Positions 17,010-60,979 of a DNA stretch of 64,000 nt are shown here, piece after piece. The stretch is taken from assembly GCF_000949865.1 (NCBI RefSeq), contig NZ_JWJH01000004.1, positions 62,001 to 126,000 on the forward strand, given 5' to 3'. Both the position numbers and the translations under genes were made by a program. Numbering within the stretch: position 1 is the stretch's first letter; each line of letters starts with the position of its first letter. Under the pieces are notes generated by a model. That model was not told the origin of the DNA and did no database searches. It saw only the letters and a program-made list of their open reading frames with translations. This DNA is from Rhizobium nepotum 39/7. Lineage in GTDB: Bacteria > Pseudomonadota > Alphaproteobacteria > Rhizobiales > Rhizobiaceae.

Positions 17010-17780
17010 TCACTCCGCGTCCCGTTTCGATTTCGGTGCGTTGAGATTGCGCAGGACATACCAGCCAGCCGCAACCACCATGGCCGCCAGAATGTACCAT
17101 GTGATGGCATAGGACAGGTGGTTGTTGGGGAAGGTGAGCATGGTTTTGCCGCCAACCGGCAGGCCGCCCGGATTGGGCGTGGCATCGGCATCGACGTAAA
17201 AAGGCGCCACGTTGGAAAGGCCGGAGGCCTGCGATATCTGGGGGATGTTGCGGGAGTACCAGCGGCCATTTGCGGGATCGTTGGTTCGAAGGAAAAGCCC
17301 GCCGGTTTCCGGCGCACGCATCAGCCCGACGATCTCAACTTGCCCGGTTGGTTCGCCTTCCCGGCGCGATGACGGATCACGTTTGTCGGAGGGGACGAAG
17401 CCACGGTTGACGATGACGTTCGAGCCGTCGTCGCGCGCAAGCGGCGTCATCACCCAATAGCCGGGGCCGAGATCGCTGACCGTATAGACCTGGATTTCCT
17501 TGTTGTTGAGGAAGGTGCCGGAGAGTTTCACGCGGCGATATTCGTATTCCGCCGGATCGGCAAGCGTCGGCCATCCGGCCGCCGCCGGTGCATCGACGGG
17601 GGTTGCATGGGCGCGGGCTTCGACGCGTTCGATCAGACCGAGCTTCCAGGAAAGACGTTGGACCTGCCATGTTCCGAGCGCCAGCAGAAAGCCCGTCAGC
17701 ACGACGGTCAGAAACAGGACGACGATTGCGGCAGGGCGAATGCGCCGGTTGCGCGGGGGTGTTTTCGACAGATCGGTCAT
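17010..17780 (-). CDS. SURF1 family protein (oxidase assembly)
   Basis: 256 residues with an N-terminal span (AAIVVLFLTVVLTGFLLALGTWQVQRL) and a C-terminal span (YAITWYILAAMVVAAGWYVL), the standard two-helix SURF1 layout with a periplasmic domain between. GTWQVQRLSWK, VNRGFVP and PNNHLSYAITW are family motifs. SURF1 proteins aid heme-copper oxidase assembly. It lies 171 bases downstream of cyoD on the same strand, behind a terminator-like hairpin, so it needs read-through or its own promoter. Placement next to cyoABCD supports a role with the quinol oxidase, but I infer this. Confidence 0.92.
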   Translation of the reverse strand: MTDLSKTPPRNRRIRPAAIVVLFLTVVLTGFLLALGTWQVQRLSWKLGLIERVEARAHATPVDAPAAAGWPTLADPAEYEYRRVKLSGTFLNNKEIQVYTVSDLGPGYWVMTPLARDDGSNVIVNRGFVPSDKRDPSSRREGEPTGQVEIVGLMRAPETGGLFLRTNDPANGRWYSRNIPQISQASGLSNVAPFYVDADATPNPGGLPVGGKTMLTFPNNHLSYAITWYILAAMVVAAGWYVLRNLNAPKSKRDAE

Positions 17781-17857
17781 GGTTCACAGTCCTTGCAAGG
17801 CCATGCGGCTTGCTGCAGCAGCATTGTTGGCTGCCGGCACGCGGCGTCTTCCAGCAA

Positions 17858-17894
17858 ATAACCCCATAAATCGCGCCACGATTCATGGGGTTAT
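17858..17894. repeat. Long imperfect hairpin between cyoD and the SURF1 gene
   Basis: ATAACCCCAT (17858-17867) pairs with ATGGGGTTAT (17885-17894), and inside this AATCG pairs with CGATT around a five-base loop CGCCA, so the stem is 15 pairs with one mismatch. No T run follows on either strand. Confidence 0.6.
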
Positions 17895-17904
17895 GTGTTG
17901 GCGC

Positions 17905-17936
17905 AAAAAGCGGCCCGCCGGAGGTCCGGCAGGCCG
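17905..17936 (-). terminator. Terminator after cyoD
   Basis: On the minus strand CGGCCTGCCGG pairs with CCGGCGGGCCG (one mismatch, loop ACCT), followed by CTTTTT. It lies 15 bases beyond the cyoD stop and would separate the cyo operon from the SURF1 gene. Confidence 0.7.
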
Positions 17937-41116: not shown

Positions 41117-41854
41117 ATGGGGAGCACGGGCGTCGATCTTCAGGAAAAATCACTGCACGAGCGCATCCGCAATGATGTCGAGCGCCATATCATGTCGGGC
41201 GAATGGCCGCCGGGGCACCGTATTCCCTTCGAACACGAGATGACCCGGCTATATGGCTGTTCGCGCATGACGGTGAACAAGGCTCTCGGCGAATTGGTGC
41301 AGCGTGGCCTGATTGAAAGACGCCGGCGTCTCGGCACCTTCGTTCGCCAGCCGCATGCGCAATCGGCCGTGCTGGAAATCCATGATATCGAACGGGAGGT
41401 GCAGGCGCTCGGTCTCGTTTACGGCTACCGTCTCGACAAGCGACGCCTGCGCCCCGCGGGTGAAAAAGATGGCGCGGCGATGGCGCTCGCCATTGATGCC
41501 CAGGTTCTGGAACTCACCAGTACGCATTTTGCCGGCGGCGTTCCCTTTTGCCTCGAAGAGCGCATCATAAATGTCACCGCCGTTCCGGAGGCGGAATTCG
41601 CAGATTTTTCACAGGTCGGGCCGGGCACATGGCTGCTGAAAATGGTTCCCTGGAGCGCCGCCGAACATCGCATCAGCGCCGTTGCCGCGGACCGTAAAAA
41701 TGCGGTGGCGCTGGGCATAACGTCCGGTGCGGCATGTCTCGTCATCCATCGCCGCACCTGGCATGGGGCGGATTACATCACCAGTGTCAGGGTCACCTAT
41801 CCCGGTGACCGTCATGCCCTCGTGGCGCAGTTCTCGCCTTCGCAAAACGCTTAA
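41117..41854 (+). CDS. GntR-family transcriptional regulator, HutC subfamily
   Basis: 245 residues. The N-terminal winged helix contains LHERIRNDVERHIMSGEWPPGHRIPFEHEMTRLYGCSRMTVNKAL; the C-terminal UTRA effector domain runs from about residue 95. The sequence resembles histidine-utilisation repressors, but no hut catabolic gene is in the window. It lies 32 bases after the ATPase on the same strand, so it probably represses the transporter operon through the palindrome at 38350, and its ligand may be the transported compound or a product of it. Confidence 0.88.
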   Translation: MGSTGVDLQEKSLHERIRNDVERHIMSGEWPPGHRIPFEHEMTRLYGCSRMTVNKALGELVQRGLIERRRRLGTFVRQPHAQSAVLEIHDIEREVQALGLVYGYRLDKRRLRPAGEKDGAAMALAIDAQVLELTSTHFAGGVPFCLEERIINVTAVPEAEFADFSQVGPGTWLLKMVPWSAAEHRISAVAADRKNAVALGITSGAACLVIHRRTWHGADYITSVRVTYPGDRHALVAQFSPSQNA

Positions 41855-47618: not shown

Positions 47619-48233
47619 TTAAACGCGGCCAAGGCAGGCGCTTTGTTCCAGCACCTGCATGATGGTTTTGCCCGCATCCTCCATGGCGCCGCTATTGTCC
47701 ACGGTCGTCACGTCGAAATCCCCGGCGACCGTCAGCGAGCTGCGTTCCAGCCGTCGGAGGATATCCTCACGGCTCTCCCGCCCGCGCTGTTCCAGCCGCT
47801 TCGCCAGCACGTCCGGCCGTGCGACGATGTTTACGACCTTGAGATGGGAAAAGGCGGTGCCGAACTGGGGCAGAGCCGAGCGGGAGCCATTGGCGATAAC
47901 CACGTCTCCCGCATTGAGATGGCGATAGACGGCGGCCGGAATGCCGTATTTCAGCCCGTGTGCGTGCCAGGAGACGGCAAAGGCGCCCTCATCTTCCAGC
48001 CGGTTGAATTCCTGCATGGAAACCGCGTCGTGATTTTCGCCGCCCGCATCACCGCTGCGGGTAATGACCCGGCGGGTGAAATGGAAGCCCGGCCGGCCGG
48101 ATAATTGCGTCGCCGCATAGTCCATCAGCGTGTCCTTGCCGGCCCCGCTCGGGCCGACAATCACGATCATGGTTCCGGGCGTCCTACCCAGCGTCGCACC
48201 GTCATGGCGATTATCCTGTTCGTTGCCGGTCAT
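47619..48233 (-). CDS. phnN: Ribose 1,5-bisphosphate phosphokinase PhnN
   Basis: Phosphorylates ribose 1,5-bisphosphate with ATP to PRPP, the last step of the C-P lyase route. It is 204 residues with a guanylate-kinase-like fold: P-loop IVGPSGAGKDTL near residue 25 and FTRRVITRSGDAGGENHDAVS near 53. Its start overlaps the phnM stop by four bases. An internal ATG at codon 22 would give a shorter form starting next to the P-loop. Confidence 0.93.
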   Translation of the reverse strand: MTGNEQDNRHDGATLGRTPGTMIVIVGPSGAGKDTLMDYAATQLSGRPGFHFTRRVITRSGDAGGENHDAVSMQEFNRLEDEGAFAVSWHAHGLKYGIPAAVYRHLNAGDVVIANGSRSALPQFGTAFSHLKVVNIVARPDVLAKRLEQRGRESREDILRRLERSSLTVAGDFDVTTVDNSGAMEDAGKTIMQVLEQSACLGRV

Positions 48234-49366
48234 GCGACACGTTTGCCCTGACGCCAGACGGAACGGGCAACGGGGACGCCATCTTCGCGGTGAACCCGGA
48301 CCAGATCGGCCCGCAATCCCGTTGCGATGCGACCACGATCATGGAGACCCACCGTTCGTGCCGGCGTGGCGGTGACCATGCGGAGCGCTTCCGGCAGGGT
48401 GATGGCTTCCACCTGGTCGGCAAGCAGGAACGGTGCGTAAAGCAGGCTGAACGGCACGTAGTCGGATGAGAGAACATCCAGCACGCCCAGTTCCGCAAGA
48501 TCGCGGGCGGCGATGTTGCCGGAGTGGGACATGCCGCGAACGATGTTCGGCGCACCCATCAGTACGCTCATGCCGGCGCTGTGCGAGGCTTTTGCGGCCT
48601 CGACGCTGGTGGGGAACTCCGCCAGTTTCACACCATGCCCGATCGCTTCGCCCACATGCGCTTCGGTTGCGTCGTCGTGGCTTGCAACGGTTATGCCGCG
48701 CTCGGCGCAGCGGGCGGCAAGATAGTCCCGGTGCTTTGCGGAAAATTTCGCAGATGCCGTCTGCCGGCGTCTGACGAACTCGGCGAATGCCTCGTCGCTC
48801 AGTCCGCGCTTCTTCTGATAATAGAAGACATACTGATCCATCGACTGGAACTGGCGCTGCCCCGGGGAGTGATCCATCATCGAAATCAGCCGTACGCGCG
48901 GATCGGTTTCGAAGTCCTCGAAATGCTCAAGCACATCTGATGAGGCGACTTCACAGCGCAGATGCAACATGTGGTCCGCCCGCAGGCGGTTTTGATCGGC
49001 AGCGGCTTCGATGGCATCCGCCATTTCCCGCATCTCGCCTTTCTTGAACCCGCCATCTTCATCGGAGCCAAGTCGAAGGCAATCGAAGACGGTGGTGATG
49101 CCTGATGACGCCACCTGTGCATCATGAGCCTGGATGGCCGCGATCTTGTCCCAGAGCACGCCGGGGCGTGGCGAATAGTGCTGTTCCAGATGGTCGGTGT
49201 GCAGTTCCACCAAGCCGGGAATCAGGAAATCGCCTTCGATATCCTCTCCGGTTTTTGATGCGCCTTCGCTGATATCGGCGATCTTGCCGTCACGGATCAG
49301 AACGGATCCCAGAATAATATCGTCTTCCAGAACGATACGGGCATTGGAAAGGGCGTGCTCGGTCAT
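48230..49366 (-). CDS. phnM: Alpha-D-ribose 1-methylphosphonate 5-triphosphate diphosphatase PhnM
   Basis: Removes pyrophosphate from ribose-phosphonate triphosphate made by PhnGHL with PhnI. It is 378 residues of the amidohydrolase superfamily. Metal motifs: PGLVELHTDHLEQHYSPR near residue 50 and ASHDDATEAH near 220; VLSSDYVPFS near 300 holds the catalytic Asp. Four-base overlaps with the genes on both sides. Confidence 0.95.
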   Translation of the reverse strand: MTEHALSNARIVLEDDIILGSVLIRDGKIADISEGASKTGEDIEGDFLIPGLVELHTDHLEQHYSPRPGVLWDKIAAIQAHDAQVASSGITTVFDCLRLGSDEDGGFKKGEMREMADAIEAAADQNRLRADHMLHLRCEVASSDVLEHFEDFETDPRVRLISMMDHSPGQRQFQSMDQYVFYYQKKRGLSDEAFAEFVRRRQTASAKFSAKHRDYLAARCAERGITVASHDDATEAHVGEAIGHGVKLAEFPTSVEAAKASHSAGMSVLMGAPNIVRGMSHSGNIAARDLAELGVLDVLSSDYVPFSLLYAPFLLADQVEAITLPEALRMVTATPARTVGLHDRGRIATGLRADLVRVHREDGVPVARSVWRQGKRVA

Positions 49367-50052
49367 GGGTCAGCATCTTTCTTTGGCTGCTGGCCAAGCG
49401 GGTGCCAGCGATGAACGGTAAAGGGTTCGCCGCGCGTTTTCTCAATGAACAAAGCGAGGCCGGAAATGGTGAGAGGCCGGTCGACGAATTCGGAAAACCG
49501 GGCCGAAAGCACATCGCGGATAGCGGGCGCGTCGTTTTCATCGATACGGCCGGTCAGCGTCATATGAAAGCGAAAGTCGTCCATGACATGCGGATAACCC
49601 CAGAGCGACAGATTTTGCCGCTGGCTTTCCGTCAGGTTTTGCGGCCGCCGCCGGGCAATATCGGTCTCGGACAGCGGCGCGCGAAACCGATCGAAATAAT
49701 CGACGATCTCTGCTGCGAAATCCTGTAGCGGCTGGTAGGTGCGGTCCGGTACGAGCGCGAAAAACGGGCCGAGCGCACCGACGACGATACGCGGAATATC
49801 GAAGGCGGACTGGCCGGCCGCAAACTGCTCGACGGCCGCGACGAGATCCAATTCACTGTATTTTTCGGCAAGCTCGAAGGGGGCTTTGAGGGTAGCGTGG
49901 AAGCCGTAACGGCGTGGCTCTTCCGTCATTTCAGCATAGGCGTCATGGTCGTCATGCTGCGCACCGGAAAACGCATTGCGCCCGAGCCAGCGCGATGCTG
50001 CTTCGGTCAGTGGATGATCTTTAGCCGGAGAAAAATAGATGGCGTAGCGCAC
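49363..50052 (-). CDS. DUF1045 protein of phosphonate operons, 2H phosphoesterase superfamily
   Basis: 229 residues. Two HxT motifs, FHATLKAPF (H52, T54) and FHMTLTGRI (H163, T165), are the paired active-site elements of 2H phosphoesterases, whose known members open cyclic phosphates. This family (TIGR03223-like) recurs in phn operons. No PhnP (the usual cyclic phosphodiesterase) is in the window, and this gene is translationally coupled to phnM and phnN, the steps just before and after PhnP's. I infer, but cannot prove, that it replaces PhnP. The GTG at 50052 giving MRYAIYF is preferred; a GTG at 50061 lies too close to GAAGAG. Confidence 0.85.
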   Translation of the reverse strand: MRYAIYFSPAKDHPLTEAASRWLGRNAFSGAQHDDHDAYAEMTEEPRRYGFHATLKAPFELAEKYSELDLVAAVEQFAAGQSAFDIPRIVVGALGPFFALVPDRTYQPLQDFAAEIVDYFDRFRAPLSETDIARRRPQNLTESQRQNLSLWGYPHVMDDFRFHMTLTGRIDENDAPAIRDVLSARFSEFVDRPLTISGLALFIEKTRGEPFTVHRWHPLGQQPKKDADP

Positions 50053-50141
50053 GACGAGCACTCTTCAGTATCATGGGAAACCAGGATGAAAAGCTATTTG
50101 GCGTGACTCGCCCGCTTCTCGCAAGGTCAGGAGTGCGAGGT

Positions 50142-50301: not shown

Positions 50302-50337
50302 GCAAAACCGGGGGCTTTCTCGTGAGAAAGCCCCCGG
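50302..50337 (-). terminator. Terminator of the phnCDE1E2 operon
   Basis: 14-bp perfect arms CCGGGGGCTTTCTC (50308-50321) and GAGAAAGCCCCCGG (50324-50337), followed on the minus strand by TTTTGC. It lies nine bases past the phnE2 stop and separates this operon from phnMN. Confidence 0.85.
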
Positions 50338-50346
50338 CATTGTGAT

Positions 50347-51696
50347 CTAGTGCTGTGTTTTCCCGATCAGACGTGAACGCAGGGCATTCGAGATGTGATC
50401 GAACAGGAATACGATGAAGAGGATGAGCAGGACCATGTAGGCGACCTTGTCCCAGTCGGCGTTCGTGCCCATCGCTTCCAGCAGTTTCAGGCCGATGCCG
50501 CCCGCACCCACCGCGCCGATGATTGTGGCGGATCGGATGTTGCTTTCCCAGAAATAAAGCGACTGGGAAATGAAGACCGGCAGAACCTGTGGCAGCACGC
50601 CGAAACGATTGACGGCTATCGGGGGCGCGCCAACGGATTTAACGCCCTCGCGCTGCTTGTCGTCCACATTCTCCAGCGCCTCGGCATAGACCTTGCCGAG
50701 CGCTCCGGTATCGGTGAAGAAGATCGCAGCTATGCCGGGTATCGGGCCGGGGCCAAAGCTGCGGGTGAAGAACAGCGCCCAGATCAGCATGTCGATCGAG
50801 CGCAGAAAGTCGAACAGGCGCTTCATGCCCCAGTTGGCAGCCCTGTTGGCGGTGATATTGCGTGCGGCGAGAAAGGCGAGCGGCAAGGCGACGAGCGTGC
50901 CGAGCAATGTACCCACGAAGGCCATCACCAGCGTCTGTATCAGCTTGGAAAAAATATCGGCGTGCTGCCAGACACCGTTATCGAGGAAATCATCGACCAT
51001 GTGGCTGATATTGGAGCGTTGGGGATCGAGCCTCTCCCCCCACAGCGCCAGCGCGGCAAGGTCGCCGTAGCCCTTACCCCAGAATTCCGATTTGGTATCG
51101 AACAGGAAATTCGCCCATCCGAGGAAGCGACGCTGCACATAGACCTGGCTGGTACGGATTTCCGCCTGGCCAGCGAAACCATAATGCACGAGAACCTTGT
51201 TGCCGTCCTGCTGGATCTGTTGCGGCAGGACCTCGGGCGCCAGAGCTGCCTCGCCGTCGATGATGACGGGATAGTTCTTGCCGTCAACATAGACATCCAC
51301 CCGCGCCGGCGTCACGTCGAGACGATTTTCGGTTCCTGCATAAACTACGCTGTAACCGCCGTCCGGCAAGGGTTGCAGCCAGTCGATCGGCGCATCGGCG
51401 GGATATTGCATGCGGCTTGACCACTGCGGGTTCACCTTGCCGTCTTCGAAACGAAGGCGTGGCTGGGCGCGCCAGGAATACCAGTCCTGAATATAGCTCG
51501 AAGCCCGATCCCACCGGCCCTGCATGAAAGCGGGACCAACATTGAAGAAGAAAAAGCAGGCGGTGAGATAGACGAGGACAGCGACAATACCGGTCAGAAA
51601 GCCGTATCGCTGCATGAACCCGCGATTGAAAATTGCGGGATGTGCAGCAGTCAGCCTTTCACGGTCAGCGGTGTTGAGAATGAAGCTGGAGGACAT
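50347..51696 (-). CDS. phnE: Phosphonate ABC transporter permease PhnE2 with large periplasmic insertion
   Basis: 449 residues, about 120 more than PhnE1. The C-terminal half is the PhnE permease: LLGTLVALPLAFLAARNITANRA near residue 265 and the EAA-type loop EALENVDDKQREGVKSVGAPPI near 345, then SATIIGAVGAGGIGLKLLEAMG. Between the first span (FLTGIVAVLVYLTACFFFFNVGP) and these lies a soluble stretch of about 170 residues, probably periplasmic. Its start shares one base with the phnE1 stop. Confidence 0.93.
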   Translation of the reverse strand: MSSSFILNTADRERLTAAHPAIFNRGFMQRYGFLTGIVAVLVYLTACFFFFNVGPAFMQGRWDRASSYIQDWYSWRAQPRLRFEDGKVNPQWSSRMQYPADAPIDWLQPLPDGGYSVVYAGTENRLDVTPARVDVYVDGKNYPVIIDGEAALAPEVLPQQIQQDGNKVLVHYGFAGQAEIRTSQVYVQRRFLGWANFLFDTKSEFWGKGYGDLAALALWGERLDPQRSNISHMVDDFLDNGVWQHADIFSKLIQTLVMAFVGTLLGTLVALPLAFLAARNITANRAANWGMKRLFDFLRSIDMLIWALFFTRSFGPGPIPGIAAIFFTDTGALGKVYAEALENVDDKQREGVKSVGAPPIAVNRFGVLPQVLPVFISQSLYFWESNIRSATIIGAVGAGGIGLKLLEAMGTNADWDKVAYMVLLILFIVFLFDHISNALRSRLIGKTQH

Positions 51697-52682
51697 CAGG
51701 CCGCTCCCCGTCCGAATTCGAAGGATTGATGACCGATCAGCCTGCGGCGCAGCCAGCCGGAAAACTGGTCAACGGCGATGATGGTGATCAGCAGCAGGAT
51801 GATGATGGCATAGGTCTTGGATGCGTGGTCGTTACCGATCGAGAGCCGGAAGACCTCGCCGATGCCGCCGCCGCCGACCGCACCGATGATGGTCGAGGCA
51901 CGCACGTTGATTTCGCCGCGCAATAATGCGTAGGAAACGAAATTGGGCAGAACCTGAGGCACGATGGCGAAACGCACCCGCTCCAGCCAGTTGGCGCCGG
52001 CGGCGCGAAGGCCTTCATCCGCCTTCATATCGGCATTTTCCACGACTTCGAAGAACAGCTTGCCCAGTGCCCCGATCGTGTGAACGGAAATCGCGATGAT
52101 CGCAGCGATCGGTCCGATCGATAAAATGGCGGTCAGCAATCCGGCGACGACGATCTCCGGAAAGGCGCGCAGGACTTCCATCACCCGACGCACGACCCAG
52201 CGGACGATCCCCGAACCGACAAGATTGGTGGAAGCGAAGAAGCAGAGCACGAAAGCAAAGCTCGTGCCGATGATCGTCGAGACCAGCGCGATGTTGAGGG
52301 TGATGATCAGCTGGTAAATGAAATGCGGGATGTAAAAGCTGTCGGTGACGTAAACGCGATCCGCGACATAGTTGTATTTCATCGAACCGTTGTCATACGG
52401 CGAGGGCAGGTCGAACATCGCGCGGAAGATTTCAAGCGGGCTGTCCGGCACGAAGGTTTTCAGGAAGTCGAAGAAATACGGCAGGCGCTCGAAGAATTTT
52501 CCCGAATTCGCCTCATTGGCGAAATTCAGCGACGCTGCGAGAATGATCAGAAAGACCACGAGCGAAATGACGGTATAAATCCGCCGTGTCGCAAGCTGCT
52601 GTTGATAATGACGCATGACCGTTCGGGACGATGCGCTCAACCCCTCGGGCTTGAGGTTACCGGGTTGCAGTGTGGTCGCCAT
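51696..52682 (-). CDS. phnE: Phosphonate ABC transporter permease PhnE1
   Basis: 328 residues. Six or so spans; FVLCFFASTNLVG, FEVVENADMKADEGLRAAGANWLERV near residue 218 (EAA loop) and ASTIIGAVGGGGIGEVFRLSIG near 260 are PhnE motifs. Forms the membrane channel with PhnE2. It follows phnD by 71 bases and overlaps phnE2 by one base. Confidence 0.94.
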   Translation of the reverse strand: MATTLQPGNLKPEGLSASSRTVMRHYQQQLATRRIYTVISLVVFLIILAASLNFANEANSGKFFERLPYFFDFLKTFVPDSPLEIFRAMFDLPSPYDNGSMKYNYVADRVYVTDSFYIPHFIYQLIITLNIALVSTIIGTSFAFVLCFFASTNLVGSGIVRWVVRRVMEVLRAFPEIVVAGLLTAILSIGPIAAIIAISVHTIGALGKLFFEVVENADMKADEGLRAAGANWLERVRFAIVPQVLPNFVSYALLRGEINVRASTIIGAVGGGGIGEVFRLSIGNDHASKTYAIIILLLITIIAVDQFSGWLRRRLIGHQSFEFGRGAA

Positions 52683-52753: not shown

Positions 52754-53659
52754 TCAGCCGCCGATAACGGACTTACGGGCGTCGATGATCGTCTGGTAGA
52801 AGGACGGATCGACCTTGACGTAGCCGGTGTTCTTGCCCTGGCTGAAGCCCTGGAAGCAAGCGAGGTCCTTCTTCGGCAGTTCCATGAAGAAGTTCTCGAC
52901 CTTCTGCTTCATGCTGTCGCCGATCTTGTTTGCGACCATGAGCGGACCGTTCGGGATCAGCGGGGACTTCCAGACTTCGACGAGATCGTCCATGTCGAGG
53001 TTGCCCTTCTTGACCATCTGGTAAAGGTTGCCGGCGGTGTAGCCTTCTTCCCATTTGCCTACGCCCGAACCGAACGTCGTGCCGACGTCGAACTTCTTGT
53101 CGAGAACCGCGAGAACGAGGTTCTCATGACCGCCGCCAAAGCCGGTTTCAGCGAAATATTCCTTGACCGGAACGCCGGTTTCTTTCGGGATCGCCACGTT
53201 CGGGACGAGGAAGCCCGAGGTGGAGTCAGGATCGGCAAAACCGATCTTCTTGCCCTTGGCGTCCGCCAGCTTCTTGATGCCGCTGTCCTTGCGGGCAACC
53301 ATGATCGTGTAATAGCCGGTCGAACCGTCGGCGCCGGCAGTGGTGAGGATCGGATCGACAGCCTTCGGATCGGCAAGGGCGATCTTGGCGTAAGAGGAAG
53401 CGCCCATGGAAGCGATGTCGATGGTGCCGCCGAGCAGGCCCTGGATCACGCCGTTATAGTCCGGCGACGGGAAAACCTGAACTTCGGAAACGCCGGTCGC
53501 GGCTTTCAGGCCATCGGCAACGCATTTCGTGTTGCGGATCTGGTCGGCTTCGTTTTCGGAACCGTCGAGACCGATACGCAGGACCTTGACGTCCTGAGCC
53601 ATGGCGGAACCGGCCAGAACGCCAAGGGCGACTGCCGAAAGAAGGATTTTCTTCAACAT
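52754..53659 (-). CDS. phnD: Phosphonate ABC transporter substrate-binding protein PhnD
   Basis: 301 residues: signal peptide MLKKILLSAVALGVLAGSAMAQ, then the PhnD fold. The ligand-site motifs SMGASSYAKIAL near residue 90, ADPDSTSGFLVPNVA near 143 and FGGGHENLVLAVLDKKFDVG near 176 are intact; they bind 2-aminoethylphosphonate in E. coli. ATG at 53659 with AGGAGAAAG upstream. Second gene of phnCDE1E2. Confidence 0.95.
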   Translation of the reverse strand: MLKKILLSAVALGVLAGSAMAQDVKVLRIGLDGSENEADQIRNTKCVADGLKAATGVSEVQVFPSPDYNGVIQGLLGGTIDIASMGASSYAKIALADPKAVDPILTTAGADGSTGYYTIMVARKDSGIKKLADAKGKKIGFADPDSTSGFLVPNVAIPKETGVPVKEYFAETGFGGGHENLVLAVLDKKFDVGTTFGSGVGKWEEGYTAGNLYQMVKKGNLDMDDLVEVWKSPLIPNGPLMVANKIGDSMKQKVENFFMELPKKDLACFQGFSQGKNTGYVKVDPSFYQTIIDARKSVIGG

Positions 53660-53744: not shown

Positions 53745-54605
53745 TCAGAGCCCGGCCAGAGCCAGCGGTTCGGGACCGGCAGATTGCTGTACCGGACGCG
53801 TGGCAAGCTGCGCGCCGGGAATATTGATGCTGGTCGAGGTCATGGTCTCGTCGATGCCGGCCCCGTGCGAATCCGTGCCGTAGATTTCCGTGACGGCCGC
53901 AGCCGTCAGCTCGGCAGGCGTTCCGTCGAAGACGACGCGGCCATGCGACATGCCGATGATGCGTTCGCAGTAATTGCGCGCGGTATCCAGCGTATGCAGA
54001 TTGGTGATGACGGTGATGCCTTCACGCTCATTGATGTCGCGCAGCGCATCCATCACGATCTTTGCGTTCAGCGGATCGAGGGAGGCGATCGGCTCGTCGG
54101 CCAGAACCATCTTCGGAGACTGCATCAGCGCCCGGGCGATGGCGACGCGCTGCTGCTGGCCGCCGGAAAGCGTGCCTGCCGCCTGCATCGCCACATGTTC
54201 GATGCCGAGCCGCTCGAGGGCGGCGATCGCCATCAGACGTTCGTCATTCGTGAAGATGTTGAAGAGGCTGAGTGCCGTCGAACGGTGGTTGAGGCGGCCG
54301 AGCATGACATTGGTGAGCACGTCGAGGCGCGGCACCAGATTGAACTGCTGGAAGATCATGGCGCAATCGCGCTGCCAGTTGCGCAGGGCGGCGCCCTTCA
54401 GCGACGAGACTTCAATGTCGTTGAAATGGATGGAACCCGAGGAAGGGTCAACGAGGCGATTGATCATACGCAGCAGCGTCGATTTCCCTGCGCCCGAACG
54501 TCCGATCACGCCAACCATCTGGCCTTGCGGAATTTTCACATTCACGGCATCGACCGCAGTGTGGTTGCCGAAACGGCGCGTGACCTGCTTCAGGTGAAAG
54601 CTCAT
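53745..54605 (-). CDS. phnC: Phosphonate ABC transporter ATPase PhnC
   Basis: 286 residues. Walker [10 protein letters not shown] near residue 35, Q-loop [17 protein letters not shown], signature [17 protein letters not shown] near 145, Walker [14 protein letters not shown], and H-loop [10 protein letters not shown]. The C-terminal 35 residues are an extra tail. ATG 54605 begins MSFHLKQ; a TTG four codons upstream has no better site. First gene of its operon, preceded by a PhoB-box array. Confidence 0.95.
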
Positions 54606-54652
54606 TTCCCCGTCCAATCTTCTTGTTACGGGGTTCGACCTAACAGCGGAGC

Positions 54653-54843: not shown

Positions 54844-55461
54844 TTACCCGGCGTATTTCGCCACGAAATCCTCGGCGGCGAGGGTGCGGAAATCATCCAG
54901 CGCACCGCGCAGCCTTGTGTGGTCCCAGTCCCACCATTTGAGATCGTCCATGCGGCTCCCAAGGTCCACCGGGAAACGTTCGCGGATCAGCCGGGCGGGC
55001 ACACCACCGACGATGGTATAGGGTGCGACATCTTTCGATACGACCGCGCCGGCGCCGATCACCGCGCCGTTTCCAACGGTCACGCCGGGCAGGATTGTCG
55101 CGCCATGGCCGATCCATACATCGTGGCCGATCACCACGCGCTTGGCGCGGCGGGCGGCGAAGAAGTCCGTTTCATCCTCGGCGTCGTCCCAATAGCTGCG
55201 GGCACGGTAGGTGAAGTGGTGGAGCGTGGCGCGCGACATCGGATGATTGGTCGCGTTGATGCGGACAGCGGCGGCGATGTTGACGAATTTGCCGATGCTG
55301 GCGCACCAGATGGCGCCATCCTGCATGACATAGGAATAGTCGCCCATCTCCACTTCCTCGATGCGGCACCGTTCCGAAACTTCGGTATAACGGCCGATCG
55401 ATGAATTGGTGACGCGGGCGGTTTCGTGGATGACGGGTTCGAGACCGACCTTGACACTCAT
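54844..55461 (-). CDS. Hexapeptide-repeat acetyltransferase of phosphonate operons
   Basis: 205 residues of left-handed beta-helix acyltransferase type: [25 protein letters not shown] near residue 50 and [45 protein letters not shown] near 118. It belongs to the phn-operon group (TIGR03308-like). It is not homologous to E. coli PhnO (GNAT fold), although a role in acetylating aminoalkylphosphonates or intermediates is possible. Its ATG overlaps the phnL stop by four bases. Confidence 0.88.
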
Positions 55462-56165
55462 GCCGCTGCCTTCCGTGGCGAAAATTTCGAAACGTCCAGA
55501 ATGCGGTCGGCCACGGCTTCCCGCACTTCCTCGTCATGGAAAATGCCGAGCAGCGCGGTGCCCTTCTCTTTTTTCTCGACGATCATGTCGACAACCACGC
55601 GCCGGTTGACGGCGTCCAGCGAGGCGGTCGGCTCATCGAGAAGCAGGATTGCATGGTCGGTAATGAAGCCGCGCGCAATGTTCACGCGCTGCTGTTCACC
55701 GCCGGAAAAGGTGGCTGGTGGAAGCGACCACAATTCCCGTGGCAGGTTGAGTTTCGAAAGCAGAACGGCGGCCTGCTCGCGCGCCTCTTCTGCGGCGACC
55801 TTGCGTGCGAAAAGCGGTTCCGCGACGACGTCGATAGCCGGAACGCGCGGCACCGTGCGAAGAAACTGGCTGACATAACCGATGGTGCGGTGGCGAATAT
55901 CGAGGATGGTGCGCGGCGAAGCGCTGCCCATGTCGATGACCTGACCCTCGTGACGGATGAGGATCTGCCCGCTGTCGATGGCATAATTGCCATAGAGCAT
56001 TTTCAGGATCGAGCTTTTGCCGATGCCGGACGGGCCGCCGAGCACGACACATTCGCCGCCGGAAACGGAAAAACTGACATCGCGGACAACAGGCAGTTCG
56101 ATGCCGTCGCGAAGATGCATGGTGAAGCTTTTGAAGACTTCCGAAACGATAAGAGGCGTCGGCAT
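55458..56165 (-). CDS. phnL: C-P lyase subunit PhnL (ABC-type ATPase)
   Basis: 235 residues. Walker [11 protein letters not shown] near residue 43, signature [14 protein letters not shown] near 160, and Walker [12 protein letters not shown]. PhnL acts with PhnGHI in coupling the phosphonate to ribose, and does not work in transport. The ATG at 56165 (MPTPLIVS) is used; the open frame upstream overlaps phnK. Next gene downstream overlaps by four bases. Confidence 0.95.
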
Positions 56166-56169
56166 GGCA

Positions 56170-56946
56170 TCAAACCTGCAAAATGGAGGAAACAAGCAAT
56201 TGCGTGTAGGGCTCGCGCGGATCGTCCAGCACCCGGTCGGTCAGGCCGTGCTCGATGACGTCGCCGCCCTTCATCACCATCATGCGGTGAGAAAGAAGCC
56301 GCGCGACTGCCAGATCATGGGTGACGACGACGACGGCGAGGCCGAGGTCGTTGACGAGGCCGCGCACGAGATCGAGCAGGCGTGCCTGCACGGAGACATC
56401 GAGGCCGCCGGTCGGTTCATCCATGAAAACGAGACGCGGCGAGGTCACCAGGTTGCGGGCGATCTGCAGACGCTGGCGCATGCCGCCGGAAAAGGCGCGC
56501 GGCTGGTCGTCGATACGGTCGGTGCCGATTTCCACCCGCTCCAGCCACTCGCTGGCCGATTGCCGGATGTTGCCGTAGTGTCGGTTGCCGACGGCCATCA
56601 GGCGCTCGCCGACATTTGCGCCGGCCGAAACCGCCATGCGCAGCCCGTCCGCCGGATTCTGGTGCACGAAACCCCAGTCTGTCCGCATCAGGAAACGCCG
56701 TTCAGCCTCGCCCATATGATAGAGGTCGCGCACCGAGCCGTCGCGCATACGATATTCCACGCTGCCCGCCGTCGGCATCAGCCGGGTGGAAATGCAGTTG
56801 AGAAGCGTGGTCTTGCCGGAGCCGGATTCACCGACGATTGCCAGAACCTCGCCGGGAAAAAGCTCGAAGGAGACGTTGCGGCAACCGGCCCGGTCGCCGT
56901 AATATTTGGAAACGTCCCTGACTTTCAGAAGCGGTGTGTCGCTCAT
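56170..56946 (-). CDS. phnK: C-P lyase subunit PhnK (ABC-type ATPase)
   Basis: 258 residues. Walker A GESGSGKTT near residue 39, signature FSGGMRQRLQIARNL near 148, Walker B LVFMDEPTGGLD. PhnK binds the PhnGHIJ core next to PhnJ and is needed for C-P bond cleavage in vivo. The ATG overlaps the phnJ stop (ATGA). Confidence 0.96.
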   Translation of the reverse strand: MSDTPLLKVRDVSKYYGDRAGCRNVSFELFPGEVLAIVGESGSGKTTLLNCISTRLMPTAGSVEYRMRDGSVRDLYHMGEAERRFLMRTDWGFVHQNPADGLRMAVSAGANVGERLMAVGNRHYGNIRQSASEWLERVEIGTDRIDDQPRAFSGGMRQRLQIARNLVTSPRLVFMDEPTGGLDVSVQARLLDLVRGLVNDLGLAVVVVTHDLAVARLLSHRMMVMKGGDVIEHGLTDRVLDDPREPYTQLLVSSILQV

Positions 56947-57845
56947 TCTGCGGCCTCCTTCACATCCGCCAGCAGGTGGCCCTTGTGGCCATGGGCGCGG
57001 CGGTCCTCACAATGGTCGGTATCGGAGCAGACGAACATCCGCCCGCCCTTGTCGTCCAGCACCACCTCGTCCAGATAGACGTTCTCCCCACCGCACAATG
57101 CACAGGGCTTGTCGAAGCGTTGGATTTCAAAGGGATGGTCTTCGAAATCCAGGCTGACGACATCCGTATAGGGCGGAACGGCGTAAATGCGCTTTTCGCG
57201 CCCGGCGCCGAACAATTGCAGGGCGTCCGACAGGTGCATTTTCGGATTGTCGAATTTCGGGGTCGGCGAGGGGTCCATCACGTAACGTCCGGCAACTTTC
57301 ACCGGATAGGCATAGGTGGTGGAGATGCGGCCGTTGCGGGCGATGTCCTCATAAAGCTTGACGTGCATCAGGCCGTATTCCTCCAGCGCGTGCATGACGC
57401 GGGTTTCGGTCTCGCGCGGCTCGAGGAAACGCAAAGGTTCGGGAATGGGAACCTGATAGACGAGAACCTGCCCCGAATGCAGTTCTTCCTCGGGAATGCG
57501 GTGCCGCGTCTGGATGATGGTCGCGTCCCTGGTGCGGGTGGTAACGGCCACATTCGCCACCTTCTGGAAAAAGGCGCGGATGGAAACGGCATTGGTGGTG
57601 TCGTCGGCCCCCTGGTCGATCACCTTCAGCACATCGTCGGGACCGAGGATGGAGGCCGTCACCTGCACGCCGCCGGTGCCCCAGCCATAGGGCATGGGCA
57701 TTTCACGGGAGGCGAAGGGAACCTGATAACCGGGAATGGCAATCGCCTTCAGGATCGCCCGGCGGATCATCCGCTTGGTCTGTTCGTCCAGATAGGCGAA
57801 GTTGTAGGCAGCCAGCCCGTCGTCGAATGAAACTTCTTCAAGCAT
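56943..57845 (-). CDS. phnJ: C-P lyase subunit PhnJ (radical SAM-type catalytic subunit)
   Basis: Breaks the C-P bond of ribose-1-phosphonate using a 4Fe-4S cluster and S-adenosylmethionine. It is 300 residues. Cysteines C248, C251 and C273 and the following C279 keep the C-x2-C-x21-C-x5-C spacing of the E. coli enzyme (241, 244, 266, 272). GWGTGGVQVTASILGPDDVLKVIDQG near residue 55 is another conserved block. Upstream of it is a 133-base gap with an antisense small ORF, then phnI. Confidence 0.97.
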   Translation of the reverse strand: MLEEVSFDDGLAAYNFAYLDEQTKRMIRRAILKAIAIPGYQVPFASREMPMPYGWGTGGVQVTASILGPDDVLKVIDQGADDTTNAVSIRAFFQKVANVAVTTRTRDATIIQTRHRIPEEELHSGQVLVYQVPIPEPLRFLEPRETETRVMHALEEYGLMHVKLYEDIARNGRISTTYAYPVKVAGRYVMDPSPTPKFDNPKMHLSDALQLFGAGREKRIYAVPPYTDVVSLDFEDHPFEIQRFDKPCALCGGENVYLDEVVLDDKGGRMFVCSDTDHCEDRRAHGHKGHLLADVKEAAE

Positions 57846-57978: not shown

Positions 57979-59088
57979 CTATTCGGCCGCATCGCCCATC
58001 CACTCCGCACCATTGGAGTTGATCGCGTCGAAATCGGCGCGCATCTTCCTCACCAGATCGAGTTCAGCCTGAAAATCCACGTAGTGCGGCAATTTCAGAT
58101 GTTCGACGAAACCCGTCGCCTGCACGTTGTCGGCGTGTGAGATGACGAATTCCTCGTCCTGCGCCGGGGCAACGACATCCTCGCCGAATTCACCGGCGCG
58201 CAACGCACGGTCGACCAGCGACATGGCCATCGCCTTGCGTTCGCTCTGGCCGAACACCAAACCGTAACCGCGGGTGAATTGCGGTGGCGCCTTGGCCGAA
58301 CCCTTGAACTGGTTGACCATCTGGCATTCGGTAACTTGAATATCGCCGAGGGAAACGGAAAAACCGAGTTCCGGCACATCCAACTCCACCTCCACTTCGC
58401 CGATGCGGATTTCGCCGACAAACGGATGCGTGCGGCCGTAACCGCGTTGCGTCGAATAGGCGAGCGCGAGAAGAAAACCCTCGTCACCGCGCGCGAGCGA
58501 TTGCAGGCGCAGGTCACGCGGCATTGGAAACTCCATCGGTTCCCGCGTCAGATCGCCGGCAATATGGTCGTCCGCCATGTCGCCGTCGTTTTCGATCAAC
58601 CCTTCTTCGGCCAGAATATCGGAAACGCGCATGACATATTCGGGCTCCCCTTCACGTCGGGCGGCAGTCTCTACGCTCTCGTCTTCGAGAAGCGAGGGAT
58701 CGAGCAGGCGGTGGGTGTAGTCGAAGGTCGGTCCCAGCAATTGCCCGCCCGGCAGATCCTTGTAGGTCGCGGAAACGCGGCGGTGAACTGTCATCTTGGC
58801 GGTATCCACCGGGACCGAATAGCCGAAACGGGGCAGGGTCGTGCGGTAGGCGCGCAGCAGGAATATGGCTTCGATCATGTCGCCGCGGGACTGCTTGACG
58901 GCAAGGGCGGCAAGCGACTGATCGTAAAGCGAAGCCTCCGCCATCACCCGGTCGACGGCGAGTGAAAGCTGCGAGACGATCTGCGCCACCGTCATGGCGG
59001 GCAGGTCGCGGTCTCCGCGCCGCTTGTCGGCCAGAAGCCGGTGTGCGTTGGCGATGGCGGTTTCGCCGCCTTTGACAGCAACATACAT
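57979..59088 (-). CDS. phnI: C-P lyase subunit PhnI
   Basis: 369 residues. PhnI, with PhnG, H and L, forms ribose-1-phosphonate triphosphate from ATP; alone it is a nucleosidase. Conserved stretches: MYVAVKGGETAIANAHRLL at the start, LDPSLLEDESVETAARREGEPEYVMRVSDIL near residue 150, and LALAYSTQRGYGRTHPFVGEIRIGEVEVE near 208. It starts one base before the phnH stop region and precedes phnJ by 133 bases. Confidence 0.96.
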   Translation of the reverse strand: MYVAVKGGETAIANAHRLLADKRRGDRDLPAMTVAQIVSQLSLAVDRVMAEASLYDQSLAALAVKQSRGDMIEAIFLLRAYRTTLPRFGYSVPVDTAKMTVHRRVSATYKDLPGGQLLGPTFDYTHRLLDPSLLEDESVETAARREGEPEYVMRVSDILAEEGLIENDGDMADDHIAGDLTREPMEFPMPRDLRLQSLARGDEGFLLALAYSTQRGYGRTHPFVGEIRIGEVEVELDVPELGFSVSLGDIQVTECQMVNQFKGSAKAPPQFTRGYGLVFGQSERKAMAMSLVDRALRAGEFGEDVVAPAQDEEFVISHADNVQATGFVEHLKLPHYVDFQAELDLVRKMRADFDAINSNGAEWMGDAAE

Positions 59089-59089
59089 C

Positions 59090-59698
59090 TTATGCCTCCA
59101 CGGGTTGAATGCGCGTCGTGCGCGGCAGGCAAACGAACTTGTCGCCAGCCGTCAGAATGATGTCGATGCCGCGCGGGAAGATGGCGTTGTTCTCCGCCCA
59201 CAGCCTCGGGAACATATCCGGCAGGCCGGAAGGGCTGATGACGTTGATGTGACGGATGCCGGGACCGGACAGAAGCAGTTCGCGTCCGCCGTCGAGATCG
59301 GGCAATTCGATGATGACCGTCGTGGAACGGTCAGGATATTCCTGAGTTCCCTGGGCAAAGAGACCGAAGGAGGCAATTGCGCTTCCGGCCTCGATGACGG
59401 CAAAATGCGCAGCACTCTTTTCTTCCGTCGCAACCGCCCCGGTGTGAAATCCGATCCATCCCGGTACTGCGGTTTTGCGAAGCGCGCCGCTCAGCCAGAC
59501 CGGCGTATCATGGTCGCAAATTGCCAGAAGAACGGCACCGGTCGCGGTGCCAAGCGGCAGCGGTGGGGCAACCGTTGTTTCGATCGTCTGCGGCGTGCCC
59601 GGCCGGGCCATGCCATCCATGAGTTTCTTGAAAATCCGTTGTGAATCGAAGACGGCGTCGGAAAAACCGCCCGTCAATGCTTCGGCCTTGACGCTCAT
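59090..59698 (-). CDS. phnH: C-P lyase subunit PhnH
   Basis: 202 residues. The core-complex scaffold related to PLP enzymes but without the lysine. GGFSDAVFDSQRIFKKLMDGMARPGT at the N terminus and LLSGPGIRHINVISPSGLPDMFPRLWAENNAIFPRGIDIILTAGD near residue 140 are diagnostic. ATG 59698 shares one base with the phnG stop (TGATG). Confidence 0.96.
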   Translation of the reverse strand: MSVKAEALTGGFSDAVFDSQRIFKKLMDGMARPGTPQTIETTVAPPLPLGTATGAVLLAICDHDTPVWLSGALRKTAVPGWIGFHTGAVATEEKSAAHFAVIEAGSAIASFGLFAQGTQEYPDRSTTVIIELPDLDGGRELLLSGPGIRHINVISPSGLPDMFPRLWAENNAIFPRGIDIILTAGDKFVCLPRTTRIQPVEA

Positions 59699-60159
59699 CA
59701 ATCCTCTCCTCGAACCATGGTGAAGAAATCGACCCGGGTTGCGGCGGTTTCTTTGGCTTTTCGGTTCGTCTCTTCGGTCAGCCTTTTTTCGACCGGTGAA
59801 AGAAGCTCGGTCTCGATGAAGTCGCGGGTCGGGCTTTCCTGCCAGAGCGCGTCGAAAACCGCTGCATACCAGGCCTTCTTGCGGCCGGTGCCGAGAACAT
59901 GCGCATGGCCGACGGTGCCGGATGCAAGCTTCACGGTTGCCCGGGTCACGGTCGTTTCGCCCAGATTGAAAGGCGCGCCGCCGCCGCCGATACGGCCCTT
60001 GACCATGACGAGACCCGTTTCAGGTCCGCGCACGTTTTCCGTCTGCGGGCTGGCATCCTGCCGGGTCCAGACCGTCTCAAGTTCCTGAACGGTGGCGCGG
60101 GCAAGAAGTGCTGCCACCCGCTTCCTTTCCGCATGTGAATTCGCCGCTTCGTTATTCAT
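59698..60159 (-). CDS. phnG: C-P lyase subunit PhnG
   Basis: 153 residues, a PhnGHIJ core subunit. RKRVAALLARATVQELETVW near residue 10, GRIGGGGAPFNLGETTVTRATVKL near 50 and GHAHVLGTGRKKAWYAAVFDAL near 80 are family motifs. The ATG at 60159 has GAGG seven bases upstream; the open frame extends 28 codons further but crosses the regulatory region. First gene of the phnGHIJKL operon, divergent from phnF. Confidence 0.95.
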   Translation of the reverse strand: MNNEAANSHAERKRVAALLARATVQELETVWTRQDASPQTENVRGPETGLVMVKGRIGGGGAPFNLGETTVTRATVKLASGTVGHAHVLGTGRKKAWYAAVFDALWQESPTRDFIETELLSPVEKRLTEETNRKAKETAATRVDFFTMVRGED

Positions 60160-60173
60160 CGCTTGACCTCTAA

Positions 60174-60191
60174 TGTCTATTGATATAGACA
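60174..60191. promoter_or_regulatory. PhnF-type operator between phnG and phnF
   Basis: TGTCTAT (60174-60180), spacer TGAT, ATAGACA (60185-60191), a perfect 7-bp-arm palindrome directly upstream of phnG in the leader. GntR/HutC-type PhnF proteins bind TATAGA-containing palindromes, so autoregulation is plausible. Confidence 0.6.
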
Positions 60192-60214
60192 ACCATACAA
60201 TATAAGCTACAATT

Positions 60215-60243
60215 AACGTCGATGAATGACAAGCGTGTGACAT
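60215..60243 (-). promoter_or_regulatory. PhoB box of the phnG operon, overlapping the phnF start
   Basis: On the minus strand ATGTCAC and TTGTCAT are 11 bases apart (plus-strand starts 60237 and 60226) and each differs from the half-site CTGTCAY by one base; a weak third unit CGACGTT follows at 60215. The first unit covers the phnF ATG at 60242. Confidence 0.6.
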
Positions 60244-60979
60244 GAGCCCTTCAGCAGCGATGAAAAGAAAGAACGGTGTGGCGCTGTGGCGGCAGATCGC
60301 CGACAGGATCAGGGCTGAGATCGCGGCGGGCGATCACGACGAAACCGGCATGTTGCCACCGGAAATCACGCTGGCCGAAAAATTCGGCGTCAACCGCCAC
60401 ACGGTCAGAAGCGCCATTGCCACGCTGGCAAGCGAAGGTATCCTCGAGCCGAGGCAGGGGCGCGGCACGATGATTGCGCGCAAGGAACGCCTGAGCTTTC
60501 CGATTTCACTGCGCACGCGGTTCACGGCGGGTATCAGCGATCAGGTGAAGGAAATGCAGGCGCTGCTTCTGTCCCATACCACCGAGCCGGCAAATGCCGA
60601 TCTGGCGGCACGGCTGCAATTGCAGCCGGGCGCACCGCTTGTGCGTCTGGAAACCCTGCGCAAGGCCGACAGCCGGCCGGTTTCCCGCTCGACCACATGG
60701 TTTCCGGCGGACCGTTTTTCAGGGATAGGGGAAGCCTATCAAAAAAGCGGGTCGATCACCGCCGCCTTCGAAATGCTGGGCGTCGCGGATTATGTGCGCA
60801 TCTCCACCGTCATTTCCGCCAGCCACGCGGATACGCAGGATCTGGCCGATCTCGAATTGTCGCCGGGCGCAATCCTGCTCGTCACTCAGGCGCTGAACGC
60901 GGATATGGACGGCATCCCGGTGCAATATGCCATCAGCCGGTTTTCAGCCGATACGGTCGAGTTCACGGTGGAAAATTAA
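60242..60979 (+). CDS. phnF: Phosphonate-operon regulator PhnF (GntR/HutC family)
   Basis: 245 residues. The winged helix contains LWRQIADRIRAEIAAGDHDETGMLPPEITLAEKFGVNRHTVRSAIATLASEGILEPRQGRGT; a UTRA effector domain follows from about residue 95. It is divergent from phnG with 82 bases between the two start codons. ATG at 60242 has no strong ribosome site; ATG at 60260 (MKRKNG) is an alternative and would free the PhoB box from the coding region. Confidence 0.92.
   Translation: MSPSAAMKRKNGVALWRQIADRIRAEIAAGDHDETGMLPPEITLAEKFGVNRHTVRSAIATLASEGILEPRQGRGTMIARKERLSFPISLRTRFTAGISDQVKEMQALLLSHTTEPANADLAARLQLQPGAPLVRLETLRKADSRPVSRSTTWFPADRFSGIGEAYQKSGSITAAFEMLGVADYVRISTVISASHADTQDLADLELSPGAILLVTQALNADMDGIPVQYAISRFSADTVEFTVEN

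Follow-up and report, generated by a model that had tools for sequence, protein, structure and literature searches.

A predicted 2H-fold protein of the DUF1045 family as the probable substitute for PhnP in a rhizobial C–P lyase pathway

Opening the cyclic phosphate in C–P lyase pathways

The C–P lyase pathway yields 5-phosphoribosyl 1,2-cyclic phosphate, the ring of which is opened by PhnP to give ribose 1,5-bisphosphate, the compound used by PhnN. PhnP is a metal enzyme of the metallo-beta-lactamase (MBL) fold, and another non-homologous enzyme, the PHP-fold cyclic phosphodiesterase PhnPP of Eggerthella, has been proposed for the same step. Enzymes of the 2H kind, by comparison, work without metal. 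The family TIGR03223/DUF1045, which we take to be identical to the phn-linked 2H protein named RcsF in some phn papers, is the subject of the present analysis.

The idea that DUF1045 substitutes for PhnP is not original to this analysis; the literature has carried it as a proposal for years. A 2013 paper that cites work of 2005 describes a 2H protein sometimes called RcsF, in a cluster without phnP, as likely filling the PhnP role (PMC3840354), while a SEED survey counts 54 operons, 27 with PhnP, and places rcsF in the 16 that lack phnP (PMC10574752). A further article refers to a review in which DUF1045 is put forward as a phosphoribosyl cyclic phosphodiesterase (PMC8235418), and in a table on the phosphorus-stress response a DUF1045 protein appears alongside PhnI, J, L, and M (PMC10132767). 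No assay of a DUF1045 protein was found in the open-licence literature, as far as its accessible text goes. The present analysis adds an exclusion count on a larger scale that includes a contrast inside one family, loci at which DUF1045-phnM-phnN stand apart, a fold model with a ribose 1,2-cyclic phosphate enzyme as its second-best match, and a ureide-linked clade with altered motifs.

The DUF1045 gene and its phn cluster

The window, a stretch of 64,000 nucleotides from Rhizobium nepotum 39/7, carries a C–P lyase cluster in the order divergent phnF-like gene, phnG, H, I, J, K, L, hexapeptide transferase gene, phnC, D, E1, E2, DUF1045, phnM, and phnN, all on the minus strand from phnG on (Table 1). 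Ten of the genes (phnC, D, E1, E2, G, H, K, L, M, and N) were named by NCBIfam and phnJ by PF06007; phnI and phnF were named from their position and from tblastn matches between the window's proteins and phn clusters elsewhere. A separate GntR regulator at 41117-41854 of the window matches HutC (TIGR02018, 294.8 bits), not PhnF. The host genome is Agrobacterium-like, and the closest relative among the best 80 of more than 590 matches is a MAG labelled A. tumefaciens, at 89 percent protein identity.

Table 1. Features of the phn cluster in the window, with the evidence for each
Feature	Coordinates	Strand	Evidence
phnN	47619..48233	-	TIGR02322, 258.8 bits; overlaps phnM stop by 4 bases
phnM	48230..49366	-	TIGR02318, 541.8 bits; overlaps DUF1045 stop by 4 bases
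DUF1045 / TIGR03223 2H-fold protein, 229 aa	49363..50052	-	profile, motifs, predicted fold; proposed phosphoribosyl 1,2-cyclic phosphate phosphodiesterase
second HxT motif, codons H163-M164-T165	49558..49566	-	sequence and alignment numbering
first HxT motif, codons H52-A53-T54	49891..49899	-	sequence and alignment numbering
terminator-like hairpin, 14 pairs, between phnE2 and DUF1045	50307..50338	-	hairpin search
phnE2	50347..51696	-	TIGR01097
phnE1	51696..52682	-	TIGR01097
phnD	52754..53656	-	TIGR03431
phnC	53745..54617	-	TIGR02315
phn hexapeptide-repeat transferase	54844..55461	-	TIGR03308, 346.8 bits
phnL	55458..56195	-	TIGR02324
phnK	56170..56946	-	TIGR02323
phnJ (C–P lyase)	56943..57845	-	PF06007, 490.9 bits at window 56994-57809 (G000:C35:118994-119809)
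phnI	57979..59088	-	lies between phnH and phnJ; tblastn matches to phn clusters elsewhere; no NCBIfam match at E<=1e-50
phnH	59090..59701	-	TIGR03292
phnG	59698..60243	-	TIGR03293
phnF-like GntR regulator, divergent	60242..60979	+	position, tblastn matches in other phn clusters

The original prediction had called a DUF1045 gene translationally coupled to phnM and phnN, with both HxT motifs of the 2H family, and each of these points was borne out. The longest open reading frame, counted from the first GTG, spans 50061..49363 (minus strand); a second in-frame GTG at 50052 begins MRYAIYF... and has the purine run GAAGAG 8 bases upstream, and this start, which agrees with the 49363-50052 of the original prediction, is preferred because of that run and the fit to the start of the TIGR03223 profile. 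Stop and start codons overlap by 4 bases at both junctions. The motifs read GFHATL (H52, T54) and FHMTL (H163, T165).

The further claim that DUF1045 lies in place of phnP held in part: the cluster is indeed without phnP, but the gene is not in the distal slot that phnP occupies in E. coli and instead heads DUF1045-phnM-phnN. The strong terminator-like hairpin of 14 pairs separates these three genes from phnE2, and they therefore look like a transcription unit of their own. Pho-box and sigma-70-like sites were rejected as evidence on the regulation of this unit, their counts being at chance level: the Pho-box search of the whole window with up to 3 mismatches gave 3 sites against 3.4 in shuffles, with none before DUF1045, and sigma-70-like sites numbered 5 against 4.2 expected.

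The protein scores 294.3 bits against TIGR03223 (curated cut-off 248.95), its sole NCBIfam match at E<=0.001, and 205.5 bits against PF06299 DUF1045 (cut-off 24.3); weak Pfam matches of the 2H kind just pass (2_5_RNA_ligase2 at 27.8 bits with a cut-off of 27, LigT_PEase at 24.8 bits with a cut-off of 23.3). An AlphaFold2 model built from 55 sequences, for which 54 loci were drawn from the best 80 of more than 590 matches, has a pLDDT of 92.6 and a pTM of 0.87. Compared with solved structures, it is closest to YjcG (2d4g; Z 14.7, 165 residues, 3.3 A), followed by the Arabidopsis Appr>p phosphodiesterase (1jh6; Z 14.1, 167 residues, 3.2 A, 14 percent identity), and it matches E. coli LigT with Z 12.3. 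According to the model, DUF1045 adopts a 2H fold, an assignment that relies on the prediction because a profile of 16 DUF1045 proteins found no meaningful relative among the solved structures (best E 0.18).

In an alignment of 77 DUF1045 copies, H52, T54, K56, P58, R124, G152, H163, and T165 are conserved in 71 to 77 rows, and both HxT/S motifs are retained in 72/72 rows outside the ureide clade described below. The tree and the motif counts omit five pieces at L065 as well as L001, L002, and L047, which repeat the genome's own genes.

Distribution of DUF1045 and PhnP among PhnJ genomes

If DUF1045 replaces PhnP, as originally predicted, the two should be mutually exclusive, and this was found: the 107 genomes with PhnJ divide into 69 with DUF1045 only, 36 with PhnP only, none with both, and 2 with neither, a total that combines an even sample of 398 genomes with two further clades, all of one phylum. 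The even sample, found by profile and not by an HxT pattern, contains 83 genomes with PhnJ, 69 with DUF1045, and 19 with PhnP above cut-off, weak matches having been dropped; 62 of the PhnJ genomes have DUF1045 only, 19 PhnP only, none both, and 2 neither. All 19 PhnP genomes also have PhnJ. Seven DUF1045 genomes are without PhnJ, one of them with phnM and phnN, one with a phnM-like gene, and five with neither; at L033 (G322), phnM, DUF1045, and phnN lie together, with no phnJ found in the genome. G374 and G377 carry PhnJ with neither DUF1045 nor PhnP, and therefore another route must exist there. L035 and L036 hold phn clusters that run from phnF to phnN, and their genomes lack both phnP and DUF1045.

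PhnP matches in the genome sample were listed to E 1e-25. The rows dropped were a PhnJ fragment with stops (G040, 18.9 bits), weak DUF1045 matches in G210, G288, and G371 with a second match in G249 (19 to 38 bits), and PhnP matches of 102 to 108 bits, below cut-off, in G063, G350, and G360, at the sites of relatives of the MBL protein discussed below. The named loci are the best 80 of more than 590 matches to a pattern that itself required the first HxT motif, and for both reasons they were kept out of the evidence on that motif and on prevalence.

Within the window's class, whose size of 135 genomes was inferred from the ordered listing of matches, DUF1045 is present in 58/58 PhnJ-bearing and 6/77 PhnJ-less genomes, and PhnP in 0/58 of the former. 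The phylum-wide exclusion is partly confounded with descent, because the PhnP genomes all lie outside this class; family f43, also outside it, was sampled for that reason. Ten of its 110 genomes have PhnJ, of which 8 have DUF1045, 2 have PhnP, and none has both or neither, each DUF1045 or PhnP gene lying within about 4.5 kb of phnJ (Fisher p 0.02, from a small set that is the sole within-family contrast). A PhnP-dominated order of 148 genomes has 24 with PhnJ, 8 of them already counted; all 16 further ones have PhnP and 0/16 have DUF1045, as judged with a model that gave no positive in the controls for this order and that detects DUF1045 in the 398-genome and f43 samples.

The 2H fold alone does not fix the substrate, because RNA or cyclic nucleotides are the substrates of other 2H enzymes, and the fold and motifs of DUF1045 are common to LigT and other RNA-acting members. 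A general 2H RNA or nucleotide 2',3'-cyclic phosphodiesterase, co-transcribed with phn genes by chance, should however neither track PhnJ, as DUF1045 does in the window's class, nor exclude PhnP, and we consider this explanation very improbable.

The 79 DUF1045 places in the 398 genomes comprise 50 within 20 kb of phnJ, 8 that adjoin both phnM and phnN with phnJ distant or absent (the window's family accounts for 7, L007-L013), 5 that adjoin a phnM-like gene, a phn transferase or phn transporter genes, 5 in a ureide operon, and 11 with no phn or ureide neighbour. Inspection by eye of the neighbours of these last 11 gave no common partner save a similar upstream gene in L014 and L027, both of one genus. 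Five pieces in G194 contig C103 were counted as two places. In the same genome, two DUF1045 genes in extra phn clusters are broken (L065:4375-4810 and 17460-17932), whereas L088, on a different contig, carries an intact third copy. Seen from the other gene, 20 of 89 phnJ places have no DUF1045 or PhnP gene within 20 kb; sorted by hand, 2 belong to the neither-gene genomes, 7 come with a separate DUF1045-phnM-phnN locus, 4 with DUF1045 by other phn-type genes, and 5 with an isolated DUF1045, while 2 are second clusters with another copy elsewhere. Divergent PhnJ proteins, which score 379 to 397 bits where the other complete matches reach 451 to 505, occur in the phn clusters of L063, L065, L040, and L041, loci whose genomes also have a normal PhnJ.

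The idea that DUF1045 is a mere passenger of the phnG-L block was rejected, since it stays with phnM-phnN away from phnJ in the seven genomes of the window's family. Its frequent position next to phnM or a phnM-like paralogue, even with phnJ far off, would also suit a protein that acts at another phn step, for instance as a PhnM partner or on a ribosyl phosphonate intermediate. That reading leaves the interchange of DUF1045 and PhnP unexplained, phnM being present either way (L048 and L049 with PhnP, L050 with DUF1045), and its probability appears minimal. L055:4095-6700 has a second, phnM-like gene beside DUF1045 (34 percent identity) and a closer phnM elsewhere, and similar genes of less than 44 percent identity stand beside DUF1045 in the family f3 loci L067, L069-L071, L074, L080, L081, and L085.

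A true PhnP elsewhere in the genome, which would have undermined the original prediction, was sought in the whole assembly (99.99 percent complete) and rejected: with the cut-off at 272 bits, the best TIGR03307 match reaches 23.6 bits per stretch, and the best candidate, an MBL protein, scores 48 bits over its full length. The reading frame of this protein, the closest PhnP relative in the genome, carries the only two TIGR03307 stretches at E<=0.001 and contains HAHADH, a type of stretch that binds metals; its gene sits behind genes that we take from sequence by eye to be tatD-like and metG-like. It might be supposed that this protein opens the cyclic phosphate and that DUF1045 does another job in the pathway; a multi-purpose housekeeping enzyme could perform the PhnP step, and a side activity of this kind would be compatible with the protein's ubiquity. 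Yet besides falling far below the PhnP cut-off, it occurs at E<=1e-40 in 131/135 genomes of the class, with PhnJ (58/58) or without it (73/77), and thus does not track the phn pathway; it also leaves the exclusion of PhnP by DUF1045 unexplained. We judge this alternative improbable.

Together, genomic evidence (family, linkage, and exclusion) and structural evidence (the predicted fold) support the replacement of PhnP by DUF1045. With a probability of roughly 0.85, DUF1045 does the job of PhnP in this C–P lyase pathway with an unrelated fold, as its phosphoribosyl 1,2-cyclic phosphate phosphodiesterase. What the analysis shows is the family, both motifs, the modelled fold, the linkage to phnM and phnN, and the exclusion of PhnP; a substrate, a regiochemistry, and residue roles are proposed as follows. 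PhnJ would release 5-phosphoribosyl 1,2-cyclic phosphate; in the cleft of DUF1045, H52 and H163 would serve as the acid–base pair while T54 and T165 hold the phosphate, and the ring would be opened at the 2-oxygen to give ribose 1,5-bisphosphate, which PhnN would turn into PRPP. The highly conserved R2, K56, and R124 are, by their conservation, candidates for holding the 5-phosphate.

A ureide-linked paralogue and comparison with known systems

The genome has a second DUF1045 gene (C19:28885-29565; L005 8868-9593) in an allantoin (ureide) operon, between a gene that we presume, without a family search, to be mnmC-like and puuE, uraD, and allA, the last three confirmed by NCBIfam. The same gene order recurs in four other genomes of the 398-genome sample, and in a midpoint-rooted tree the five ureide-linked copies form one clade (100/99) that branches within the rhizobial phn-type copies. 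HxT is altered in 4/5 members of this clade and in 0/72 other rows (Fisher p 4e-6, relatedness ignored): the second motif reads QxS (QMS) in the window's genome, and HxV and HxP occur in three others. Three of the four altered copies are close kin, and the alterations may therefore amount to about two events. Among the best 80 of more than 590 matches are three further ureide-linked copies; in one of these the second motif reads HxM, and in the other two it is intact.

At L165:10001-14586, a phn cluster ending in DUF1045-phnM-phnN is followed directly by puuE-uraD-allA, and as a guess, the ureide-linked copies arose from an arrangement of this kind by loss of phnM and phnN, which left DUF1045 beside puuE. 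The copies may be decaying or in a new role. A speculative and rather unlikely version of the latter is that rhizobia reused the phn phosphodiesterase, a duplicate beside puuE, uraD, and allA having lost one or both HxT motifs in several genomes while keeping the scaffold, and perhaps acting now in purine breakdown as a binding or regulatory protein that lacks catalytic activity. The clade with altered motifs is possibly new; it was not met in literature searches, which were aimed at other questions.

If the assignment of DUF1045 to the PhnP step is true, a 2H enzyme does the work of the E. coli metal enzyme in many phn clusters of the window's class and in some beyond it. A required step in the breakdown of phosphonate, methylphosphonate, and glyphosate would then offer a clear example of non-homologous replacement. 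The family, which Pfam still lists as DUF1045, would gain a function, and those gene surveys in which phnP serves as the sign of a complete pathway would be improved.

Set against the described systems, the window protein is an ordinary member of TIGR03223 (Phn_opern_protn), with 294 against 249 bits, a phn cluster around it, and both HxT motifs; no difference from that family was found. E. coli LigT and B. subtilis YjcG have the same 2H fold (Z 12.3 and 14.7), and we know of no phn linkage for either. LigT binds nucleotides and tRNA (PMC5283653). With the Arabidopsis Appr>p phosphodiesterase, DUF1045 would have in common both the 2H fold and ribose 1,2-cyclic phosphate chemistry, although the substrate of the plant enzyme, the role of which lies in tRNA splicing, has ADP where the phn intermediate has the 5-phosphate. 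The fold of PhnPP differs from the 2H fold predicted here. PhnP of E. coli (TIGR03307) is the counterpart at the proposed step, in what exclusion indicates to be the same pathway slot; DUF1045 differs from it in having no TIGR03307 match at E<=0.001 and in a model of the 2H fold.
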